Assembly (NCBI RefSeq): GCF_003625485.1
Contig: NZ_RAIR01000007.1
Coordinates: forward strand, 124,001 to 188,000
Length of the DNA stretch: 64,000 bases
Reading direction: 5' to 3'
Origin: Butyrivibrio sp. CB08
GTDB lineage: Bacteria; Bacillota; Clostridia; Lachnospirales; Lachnospiraceae
Position numbers and translations under genes: made by a program. Every line of letters starts with the position of its first letter. Position 1 is the first letter of the stretch. A model generated the notes under the pieces. That model searched no databases and was not told the origin of the DNA. It worked only from the letters and a program-made list of their open reading frames with translations. Shown here in pieces: positions 59,480 to 62,382 of this stretch.

Positions 59480-59783
59480 GATCCTCTCCTAGCTTTGATA
59501 CTTATATGGTACATGTCTGACTATCACACAAAAAATCATACAAGCACCTGTTTTTTGTAGATTCAGCTTAAAAGAAAATGAATATGATGAAGCTTAAATT
59601 AAGATTATTAAAAGCTTCTAAAGAAAACGTTTGATATGCAATCATTGAATGTGTTCTTGGAAATAAAGATTTTAGGCTTTATGATTAGCGCACAAAAAAG
59701 CCAGTGTTTATGCGGGGTTTTGCATGGGCTGTAATTGTGGTACAATCGTAAGAGCACAATGGAGTGCGGATGAGGACATTATT

Positions 59784-61511
59784 ATGGAAAAGATAGGAAT
59801 TGTATTTGGCTGTTTCATACCTCTTCACAAGGGACATGAGTCTTTGATCGAGCGTGCGCTTTCTGAGAACGACCGCATGATCATCGCTGTCTGTGGCTAT
59901 CAGCAGGACCGCGGCAAAGACTTTCTTCCATTTACAGTGCGCTACAAGCTGGTAAAAGAGATATTCAGGGACAATCCAAGAGTAGTCATCGGTCTTATCG
60001 ACGACAAGAAGATCGGCCTTGATGGAACCTTTACCCACGAGAACTGGGTAGCCTGGGGAAAAGAGCTTTTTGCCTCCGCAGGTATAGAACCTGACAGCGC
60101 AGAGTTTACATGGTACACAGGAGAGCCTCCTTACGTTGAGAAGCTCCAGCCTATATATCCGGACCACAAATTTGTCCTTGTGGACCGCACTGTGATAAAG
60201 GCAAGCGGAACCCAGATCAGAAACAATCCACAGGTTCATCTTGGCGATATCAATTTTGTTTTTGAACAATACCTGCGTAAGACAGGAAAACTCGAGGAGG
60301 ATCCTATGAATCCAATTATTGACAGTTTACTTGAAACTGACCTTTACAAATTTTCAATGGGTCAGGCAATCTATCACCAGTTCCCGGACTACACCACCAC
60401 ATGGTCTTTCAAGTGCCGCAACAAGGACGTGCACTTCACAAAAGAGATGGTGGACGAGATAAAGAGACAGATCTACCTGTACTGCGACTTAAACTTCACA
60501 GAGGATGAGCTCAACTACCTTGCAGGCATCAAGTGGATCAAGAAATCATACGTTGATTTCCTTAGACTGTGGCATCCAAGATACGAAGACTTTACTATTA
60601 CAGATGAGGCTGAGTGCGGACTTTCAATCGAGACCAACGGAACATGGCTCAACACTTCCATGTACGAAATCCCAACTCTTGCCATCGTCAACGAAGTTTA
60701 TTTCAGAATGGCTTATGACTATGAGGAGCTCATGGAATCCTTCGAGGAGAGACTCGATGCGAAGATAGCTCTTTTGACTAATGAAACATACAATCTCGGG
60801 GCCTTCTCAGAGTTCGGCTTAAGGAGAAGATTATCAGCTGAGGCTCAGGAACTTGCAGTTATGAAGCTCAGAGATTCCAAGCTTGGTAAGTCAATATTTG
60901 TAGGAACTTCAAATGTTCTCCTTGCTAAGAAGCTAGGAGTTAACCCTGTTGGAACCATGGCTCACGAGTGGATCATGTGCGTTGGACAGGGCAATCACAA
61001 GCACAACCCTGCTTACTCAAACTGGTACGCTCTTGATGCATGGGTTAAGGAGTATGGTATCCTGAACGGAACTGCTCTTACAGACGCCATCACAACAGAC
61101 TGCTTCCTCAGAGACTTCCAGCTGACTTATTCAACACTGTTCTCTGGCGTTCGCCATGACAGCGGAGATCCAATCGAGTGGGGCGAGAAGATGATCGAGC
61201 ACTACAAGTCACTTGGCATCGATCCAGCTACCAAGACTCTTCTGTTCTCAGACAGCCTTGACTTCGAGCGCGCTAACAACATCCACGCACACTTTGATGG
61301 AAGAGCCAAGGTTGCTTTCGGAATCGGAACATACATTGCAAACGACACCAAGGTTCCTGCCCTCAACATCGTAATGAAAACCACAGCCTGCAACGGACAG
61401 GATGTAGCTAAGGTTTCAGACGTAGAAGGCAAGGGCATGTGCAAGAACCCTGACTACGTTGATTACCTGCAGAGATGCATCAACTGGAGAATGGAGCACG
61501 AGGAGGCTTAA
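59784..61511 (+). CDS. NadR-type NMN/NaMN adenylyltransferase fused to nicotinate phosphoribosyltransferase
   Basis: 575 residues. Domain 1 (~1-170) is a nucleotidylyltransferase: GCFIPLHKGHESLI with the HxGH motif, and KASGTQIRNNP matching the NadR ISGTxIR loop. Domain 2 (~175-575) is a nicotinate phosphoribosyltransferase with LLETDLYKFSMGQAI, TNEVYFRM-type, GTSNVLLAKKLG and GVRHDSGDP segments. The start MEKIGIVFG at 59784 follows GATGAGGAC. An internal GAGGAGG precedes an in-frame ATG at 60306 (residue 175), so PncB may also be made alone. It joins two Preiss-Handler steps. Confidence 0.88.
   Translation: MEKIGIVFGCFIPLHKGHESLIERALSENDRMIIAVCGYQQDRGKDFLPFTVRYKLVKEIFRDNPRVVIGLIDDKKIGLDGTFTHENWVAWGKELFASAGIEPDSAEFTWYTGEPPYVEKLQPIYPDHKFVLVDRTVIKASGTQIRNNPQVHLGDINFVFEQYLRKTGKLEEDPMNPIIDSLLETDLYKFSMGQAIYHQFPDYTTTWSFKCRNKDVHFTKEMVDEIKRQIYLYCDLNFTEDELNYLAGIKWIKKSYVDFLRLWHPRYEDFTITDEAECGLSIETNGTWLNTSMYEIPTLAIVNEVYFRMAYDYEELMESFEERLDAKIALLTNETYNLGAFSEFGLRRRLSAEAQELAVMKLRDSKLGKSIFVGTSNVLLAKKLGVNPVGTMAHEWIMCVGQGNHKHNPAYSNWYALDAWVKEYGILNGTALTDAITTDCFLRDFQLTYSTLFSGVRHDSGDPIEWGEKMIEHYKSLGIDPATKTLLFSDSLDFERANNIHAHFDGRAKVAFGIGTYIANDTKVPALNIVMKTTACNGQDVAKVSDVEGKGMCKNPDYVDYLQRCINWRMEHEEA
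60293..60308 (+). promoter_or_regulatory. Internal ribosome binding site between the NMNAT and PncB domains
   Basis: GAGGAGG followed by ATCCT and ATG (60306) inside the ORF. The sequence encodes Glu-Glu-Asp-Pro-Met in the fusion, so it is both coding and a canonical SD-ATG at good spacing. Confidence 0.6.
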
Positions 61512-61552
61512 GGGCAGCTTGCTGCTCCCTCTAGCGCCAGGAGGATATGAAA

Positions 61553-62302
61553 ATGAGTACTAATGGATTTAATGCTAATGAAGAGATAGAAAAGATTGTA
61601 GCCTGGATCCAGGACTGGTTTGAGAACAATGGTCCTAAGGCAAATGCCGTTATCGGAGTATCAGGTGGTAAGGATTCTTCCATCGTTTCAGCGCTTCTAG
61701 TTAAGGCTCTTGGTAAAGATCGCGTTGTGGGCGTTCTGATGCCAAACGGCGAGCAGAAGGATATCGCTGATTCCAAGAAGCTTGTGGAGTTCCTTGGTAT
61801 CAGGCACTATATTGTAAACATCAATCCCGCTGTAGAAGGCGAGTATGCTGCTCTTAGAGCAGCCGGCATTGAGGTTGGCAAGGATGCTATCATCAATACT
61901 CCGCCAAGAATCAGGATGACAACTCTTTATGCTGTTGCACAGTCTCTTCCAGAGGGCGGACGCGTTGCCAACACCTGCAACAAGTCTGAGGACTGGGTTG
62001 GTTATTCCACCAAGTATGGCGATGCAGCCGGAGACTTCAGCCCCTGCTCAGATTACCTTGTTAGCGAGATGCTCCAGATCGGAGATGCTCTTGGTCTTCC
62101 AACAGAGCTTATCCACAAGACTCCATCCGACGGCCTCTCAGGAATGTCCGACGAGGACAAGCTTGGCTTCACCTACGCAGTACTTGACCACTACGTTCTC
62201 ACTGGCGAGATTGAAGATCAGACCACCAAGGAAAAGATCGACCGCCTGCACAGACTTAACCTTCATAAGCTGCAGACAATCCCAATGTATAAGAGGGGAT
62301 GA
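61553..62302 (+). CDS. nadE: NAD(+) synthase, ammonia-dependent
   Basis: 249 residues. The PP-loop reads GVSGGKDSSIV; EDWVGYSTKYGDAAGDFSP and SDGLSGMSDEDKLG are NadE signatures. There is no glutaminase domain. AGGAGG is two bases from the ATG at 61547 and eight from the ATG at 61553, so the second is used. It follows the NMNAT-PncB fusion by about 40 nt and completes the nicotinate to NAD route in the cytoplasm. Confidence 0.93.
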   Translation: MSTNGFNANEEIEKIVAWIQDWFENNGPKANAVIGVSGGKDSSIVSALLVKALGKDRVVGVLMPNGEQKDIADSKKLVEFLGIRHYIVNINPAVEGEYAALRAAGIEVGKDAIINTPPRIRMTTLYAVAQSLPEGGRVANTCNKSEDWVGYSTKYGDAAGDFSPCSDYLVSEMLQIGDALGLPTELIHKTPSDGLSGMSDEDKLGFTYAVLDHYVLTGEIEDQTTKEKIDRLHRLNLHKLQTIPMYKRG

Positions 62303-62326: not shown

Positions 62327-62382
62327 CCTGGCAAAAGCCAGGCTGTAATCAAGGGATGCCACTAAACGTGGCGTCCCTTTTT
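62327..62382 (+). terminator. Tandem hairpins with terminator after nadE
   Basis: CCTGGC AAAA GCCAGG is followed by AAGGGATGCCAC TAAAC GTGGCGTCCCTTTTT. The second is a strong intrinsic terminator. Confidence 0.92.

Follow-up and report, generated by a model that had tools for sequence, protein, structure and literature searches.

A recurrent NMNAT-PncB gene fusion in Butyrivibrio with a conserved candidate start site for free PncB

The window analyzed here, a 64,000-nucleotide stretch of the Butyrivibrio sp. CB08 genome, encodes a NadR-type NMN/NaMN adenylyltransferase (NMNAT) and a complete nicotinate phosphoribosyltransferase (PncB) within one reading frame. The fusion is real, recurrent and, among the genomes sampled, confined to Lachnospiraceae. 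Its product is probably a bifunctional nicotinate phosphoribosyltransferase/NaMN adenylyltransferase that would have arisen by loss of a stop codon, with the inherited pncB start still yielding some free PncB. This reading is drawn from comparison of fused and split genes across the genus.

The fusion gene, its domains and nadE

The gene and its surroundings comprise the following features, all on the + strand:

59719..59746, +, promoter-like TTTGCA-16-TACAAT upstream of the fusion (weak: 6 found against 4.3 expected)
59784..61511, +, NMNAT-PncB fusion gene, an uninterrupted frame of 575 codons plus stop
59784..60299, +, NadR-type NMN/NaMN adenylyltransferase domain, aa 1-172, with the motifs GCFIPLHKGH and SGTQIR
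60306..61511, +, PncB, aa 175-575, assigned by family match and equal to the product expected from the internal start
61547..62302, +, nadE, NAD synthase without a glutaminase domain (TIGR00552, 157.4 bits against a cut-off of 63.65)
62351..62379, +, terminator-like stem-loop after nadE, 12 pairs followed by a T run (4 found in the scanned region against 2.7 expected by shuffling)

The N-termini of orthologues begin at the position equivalent to 59784, which is preceded by GAGGA at 59772. A longer frame is also open from 59724; the orthologues nevertheless start at the 59784 equivalent. Residues 3 to 167 match the NadR model TIGR01526 over positions 2-164 of 325, with 84.8 bits (E 6e-24), a score that stays under the cut-off of 341 because the kinase half of the model is absent from the fusion. 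The profile matches include no ribosylnicotinamide kinase domain, and it is PncB that follows the NMNAT instead. The NMNAT domain also matches Pfam CTP_transf_like. Residues H15, G17 and H18 of the HxGH-type motif and S141, I145 and R146 of the S-x-T-x-I-R-like motif are invariant in all 16 aligned rows, while T143 is replaced by Ser in one of them. Residues 175 to 575 match TIGR01514 (NAPRTase) over positions 1-395 of 399 with 409.9 bits (cut-off 269.55) and thus constitute a complete PncB. The in-frame joining of the two domains, as described in the earlier note, is therefore confirmed by the 575-codon frame and by both family matches. AlphaFold prediction on 10 fused sequences was of low confidence (pLDDT 55.3, pTM 0.45).

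The nadE product scores 168.6 against the narrower PRK13980 model, below its cut-off of 255, and translation of nadE may begin at the second ATG (61553), whose distance from AGGAGG is more favourable. nadE lies downstream in 17 of 17 fused loci and in 13 of 13 split loci read, and the claim that the three Preiss-Handler activities stand in one unit is borne out in the form of a two-gene unit. A spacer of 35 nt separates the fusion from nadE in the window, unlike in L008, L010, L012, L013 and L014, where nadE starts in another frame within the last codons of the fusion gene and overlaps it. In L008 this start, ATGAGC.., reads M-S-K-F-D-A.

Distribution and origin of the fusions

PncB of this kind is present in 55 of the 79 genomes of the genus Butyrivibrio. 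NMNAT and PncB are fused, with no stop between them, in 17 of the 79. In another 14, a separate gene adjoining pncB encodes an NMNAT of that subfamily (67-72% identical), and 12 have a divergent NMNAT (28-38% identical) in that place, both of the two scanned being NadR-type. NadD occupies the slot before pncB in 2 genomes, and a search limited to tblastn and motifs found no NMNAT directly upstream of pncB in 10. Four genomes listed with open frames of 606-629 aa (G008, G009, G052 and G064) were rejected as fused and counted as split, because in all four a stop follows the NMNAT and an in-frame stop lies 4 to 21 codons ahead of pncB.

The earlier note had raised the alternative that a stop was lost here by error; as 17 of 79 genomes of the genus are fused, this is excluded. 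Sequencing error or a chimaeric assembly was also rejected, the fusion of group A being common to 15 species that include the isolates FCS014, XPD2006 and NC2007. An assembly artefact was rejected in group B as well, which consists of the isolates MC2021 and AE3009. The 15 fused species of group A, that of the window among them, share the linker KTGKLEEDP-M with small variations, and the two species of group B have the linker GKLDIPESEFN-M. A further fusion, F3, was found in two uncultured Lachnospiraceae, L119 (RUG12455) and L121 (RUG14896). Its linkers are rich in Lys and Arg, and the 28 codons that precede the PncB motif RSLLETDLY contain no ATG.

When 397 genomes of the family, a sample and not a census, were searched with the complete fusion (E <= 1e-15), no fusion outside the genus was found; L119 and L121 came from a different genome collection. 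Equally as samples and not censuses, 392 genomes of the order searched with the NMNAT alignment and 398 genomes of the phylum searched with the PncB family gave no further fusion. PncB frames are listed as long in G455, G454, G117 and G190, where a motif search gave no NMNAT, and in G198, where the stretch read held no recognisable frame.

Trees were built from both domains combined, with the junction columns left out. Of the 31 loci in groups A, B and S, 30 entered each combined tree, together with 5 outgroup rows; L041, L042, L043, L055 and L056, for which no frame was found, are absent, and the NMNAT tree omits the NMNAT rows of L033 and L035, which are of the NadD type. A single origin of groups A and B is rejected by these trees. 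Forcing the two into one clade cost 13.75 log units (AU p 0.023) with the PncB outgroup and 9.93 (AU p 0.0239) with other Lachnospiraceae as outgroup. Group A formed one clade with both outgroups, with support of 100/99 and 89/85, respectively. Group B appeared as successive branches, not a clade, with the PncB outgroup and as a clade (80/100) with the Lachnospiraceae outgroup. With split outgroups the cheapest history has two fusions, and one fusion followed by later splits is only one step longer; two separate fusions are favoured because the linkers are unlike. The F3 relatives L118, L120 and L123 are split, and their region of the tree brings long branches together, so that the independence of F3 rests on its linker and its distance.

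Split relatives such as L017 suggest how group A may have formed. Their NMNAT ends in ...GKLK-stop, followed by a short spacer with AAGGAG and then by pncB. A derivation of group A from an L017-like arrangement, minus the stop and part of the spacer, is supported by this comparison, and the pncB ribosome site would now serve as linker codons. In such a scheme the stop codon and spacer between adjacent NMNAT and pncB genes would have been lost, and the old ribosome site would have become the codons Glu-Glu-Asp-Pro that precede the old start Met.

The candidate internal start at the domain junction

Three overlapping or adjacent features mark the junction:

60252..60335, +, codons 157-184, with the least synonymous variation of any 28-codon stretch in the 15 group-A genes (O/E 0.575)
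60272..60286, +, possible small hairpin CCTG-7nt-CAGG, its stem invariant in group A and its loop variable, present at 15/15 group-A loci and 3/13 split loci
60294..60308, +, candidate internal ribosome-binding site and start GAGGAGG-ATCCT-ATG, an apparent relic of the pncB start as judged from split orthologues

The earlier note described a perfect GAGGAGG-ATG unit within the coding sequence. Both elements are indeed present at 60294-60308, but they are not contiguous, the Shine-Dalgarno (SD) sequence and the ATG being spaced by 5 nt. Taken in this sequence alone the motif is no rarer than chance, since GGAGGN5ATG occurs twice in the window against 1.95 expected from shuffles. It is nevertheless more than a chance match, because it coincides with the pncB start of split orthologues and because SD and ATG are kept at the domain border in 15 of 15 group-A species.

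The predicted anti-SD duplex at the internal site has an energy of -8.6 to -11.7 kcal/mol in all 15 group-A genes, compared with -5.6 to -10.3 at their own starts. The internal site is at least equal to the own start in every gene, though only by 0.1 in L006 and L007; in L014, which has no ATG before the NMNAT motif, the start was taken as GTG and its upstream string ends after GTG. Among 212 other in-frame Met sites of the group-A genes the best reaches -9.8 and the next -7.8 kcal/mol. The corresponding values in group B are -2.5 and -6.1, and a strong ribosome site with ATG is retained by the 15-species group only.

These data can be set against the possibility that the full-length fusion is the sole product, the internal SD-ATG surviving as a non-functional fossil of the pncB start through protein constraint on the linker together with a preference for GAG. 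We consider this unlikely. It would agree with the two or so such motifs expected by chance in a window of this size, and with the ordinary opening energy of the internal site (on average 3.16 kcal/mol, compared with 3.87; of the 194 other Met sites, 42% are as open). The fusions B and F3, which have no comparable internal start, also speak for it, and free PncB is therefore not a general need. The internal ATG is kept in 15/15 genes and Glu-171 and Glu-172 are GAG in 15/15 and 14/15, respectively; the two Glu codons are weak evidence because GAG makes up 74% of Glu codons, a bias that would itself suit a fossil, and 5 of the 29 conserved Glu columns are all GAG. Against it stand the strong SD at the right spacing in all 15 genes and the pattern of synonymous variation, which is lowest exactly at the junction.

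Ten of the 12 lowest 9-codon windows of group A start at codons 157-164 or 175-176, the others at 249 and 391, and the SD codons 171-173 have an O/E of 0.13. Gene-wide permutation gave modest p values of 0.0025-0.11 overall, depending on window and thinning. With column shuffling and windows of 9, 15 and 28 codons, p was 0.061, 0.0165 and 0.0025 for all 15 sequences, 0.1075, 0.0245 and 0.0175 for 10 representatives, and 0.0235, 0.0185 and 0.0535 for five pairs, which were chosen by eye and are not fully independent, as L006-L011 and L008-L015 share a tree branch. Codons 176-186, after the internal ATG, have an O/E of 0.67 with 15 rows and of 0.77 and 0.83 when thinned. Controls were not comparably reduced: O/E was 0.87 (codons 157-174) and 1.35 (160-179) at the group-B junction, each on about 6 expected differences, 1.12 at split NMNAT ends, 0.97 (codons 2-12) and 0.77 (13-23) at split PncB starts, and 1.29 at the group-A main start. 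The signal is therefore particular to the group-A junction and not a general mark of start sites. Leu-164 is CTG and Lys-169 is AAA in 15/15 genes, although CTG accounts for only about 25% of Leu codons and AAA for about 26% of Lys codons, which also argues against a fossil held by protein constraint. Codons 161, 162 and 165, which lie between and beside Leu-164 and Lys-169, change amino acid freely; recent exchange of the whole stretch is therefore an unlikely cause.

Constraint is strongest at codons 159-167, immediately ahead of the SD and 24-48 nt before the start, a location for which the SD alone gives no account. The region includes the possible hairpin, which falls within the most constrained codons, 163-167, and reaches about -3.7 to -6.6 kcal/mol when 26 nt are folded alone. 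Given protein and codon usage, its chance per gene is about 0.05 (four genes tried). The hairpin is invariant in group A and therefore displays no covariation. It belongs to the best structure in 3 of 7 longer folds. A stable RNA structure at the junction was rejected, the 7 folds of 111-115 nt giving z-scores of -0.74 to 0.21, no better than shuffles.

The location of this constraint, together with the occurrence of the hairpin in 15/15 group-A genes as opposed to 3/13 split genes, could mean that the SD-like stretch and the hairpin delay ribosomes during elongation where the two domains meet, giving the NMNAT time to fold before PncB is made, without any initiation. Such pausing would require neither an ATG at the correct spacing nor lowered variation after it, at codons 176-186, and folds of 111-115 nt that are no more stable than shuffles do not favour it either; we regard it as very unlikely. 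The hairpin itself may belong to the initiation region, may act as a pausing element, or may do neither.

On balance we favour synthesis of free PncB from the internal start in group A. The earlier proposal that the internal SD-ATG gives free PncB is thus plausible, with comparative support from the position of the site at the split pncB start, its retention in 15/15 species and the low synonymous variation. In this 15-species lineage the internal site would still initiate, and one mRNA would give the full fusion plus a certain amount of normal-sized free PncB. The latter would allow PncB oligomers without an NMNAT on every subunit and would set the ratio of PncB and NMNAT activities. A broader proposal, for and against which we hold the balance to be even, is that Lachnospiraceae fused the same two enzymes on three or more separate occasions, and that one lineage keeps the pncB start by selection, maybe with the hairpin, as a dosage device giving mixed assemblies of fused and free PncB, the other two making the fusion only.

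NAD salvage and relation to known systems

From family assignments and gene context, PncB would make NaMN, the NMNAT domain would adenylate NaMN to NaAD, and NadE would amidate NaAD to NAD. No nadA was found in the 17 fused genomes, 5 of which are less than 80% complete. The gene is patchy in the genus as a whole, with 14/79 genomes carrying it, 0/17 of the fused and 6/14 of the split-gene genomes. PnuC, the usual NR/NMN importer, occurs in 9/79 genomes and in 1/17 fused genomes (G011), and was not found in the genome of the window. These results for nadA and PnuC in fused genomes point to a need for nicotinate or nicotinamide, with PncB as the point of entry.

A standalone NadD is encoded in the genome of the window (151.4 bits against a cut-off of 112.45), and NadD is over the cut-off in 12/17 fused genomes, the other five being 60-76% complete. 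The NMNAT domain is therefore not the only NaMN adenylyltransferase. Two relatives, L129 (G029) and L130 (G054), have a NadD-type gene (TIGR00482, over cut-off) directly before pncB and nadE. As this is the only NadD over the cut-off in both genomes, it suggests that one adenylyltransferase type replaced another. Compact clusters at L118:1632-5529 and L119:1426-5548 contain an NrtR-like regulator, an isochorismatase-family amidase (PncA-like), NMNAT, pncB and nadE, which places the whole nicotinamide-to-NAD route in one place; NMNAT and pncB are fused in L119.

The nadE context, the presence of NadD in the same slot and the NrtR- and PncA-like neighbours together make NaMN the most likely substrate of the NMNAT domain. 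The domain might instead act outside the Preiss-Handler route, using NMN or sensing nucleotides to regulate PncB while NadD makes NaAD. That the genome holds a NadD over its cut-off would leave room for such a role, and the NMNAT domain of NadR acts on NMN (PMC7221760). We find it quite unlikely, as the NMNAT stands with PncB and NadE in every fused (17/17) and split (13/13) locus read, PnuC is missing from the matches in the window's genome, NadD itself fills the slot in two relatives, and the HxGH residues are invariant in the 16 aligned rows.

That enzymes of consecutive pathway steps have been fused repeatedly is good evidence for their joint action, and here it places a vaguely named NadR-like domain in nicotinate salvage. 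Within the genus, split genes, a fusion with an internal start and a fusion without one can also be compared, which suits asking whether start signals persist after fusion as leftovers or are kept by selection. That no nadA was found in the 17 fused genomes, complete or not, also bears on the vitamin B3 dependence of rumen butyrate producers.

No report of an NMNAT-PncB fusion was found in the open-licence literature, searched by titles and the beginnings of abstracts, and 'nicotin', 'NAD biosynthesis' and 'PncB' do not occur in the main text of a survey of metabolic fusions (PMC4921024). Fused enzymes and internal initiation are each known; their combination, with a natural comparison between lineages, is new as far as the literature was searched.

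NadR proper carries a kinase, and the earlier statement that the NadR domain is usually fused to one agrees with PMC7221760. The nearest solved relative of the NMNAT domain is L. lactis NadR (6gye, E 2e-22 over aa 3-166). NadR, an NMNAT-ribosylnicotinamide kinase (L. lactis 6gye, H. influenzae 1lw7), has an N-terminal NMNAT of the same family as the fusion. No kinase or DNA-binding domain was found in the fusion, where PncB takes the place of the kinase; PncB would supply NaMN from nicotinate, whereas the kinase of NadR supplies NMN from nicotinamide riboside. With PncB/NAPRTase (TIGR01514; PDB 1yir, 3os4) the fusion shares the full-length module, to which it adds an N-terminal NMNAT. NadM-Nudix (NMNAT/ADP-ribose pyrophosphatase) also joins an NMNAT to an NAD-related enzyme, according to PMC9503650, but with another NMNAT subfamily and another partner, and the match of the fusion to PRK05379 is weak. 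A parallel to the candidate internal start is Cas11b inside cas8b, where a single frame encodes both a long protein and, beginning at an internal Met, the C-terminal part of that protein (PMC11899642). The Cas11b start is reported there from experiment, whereas that of the fusion is deduced from sequence and its site would be the former start of a separate gene.
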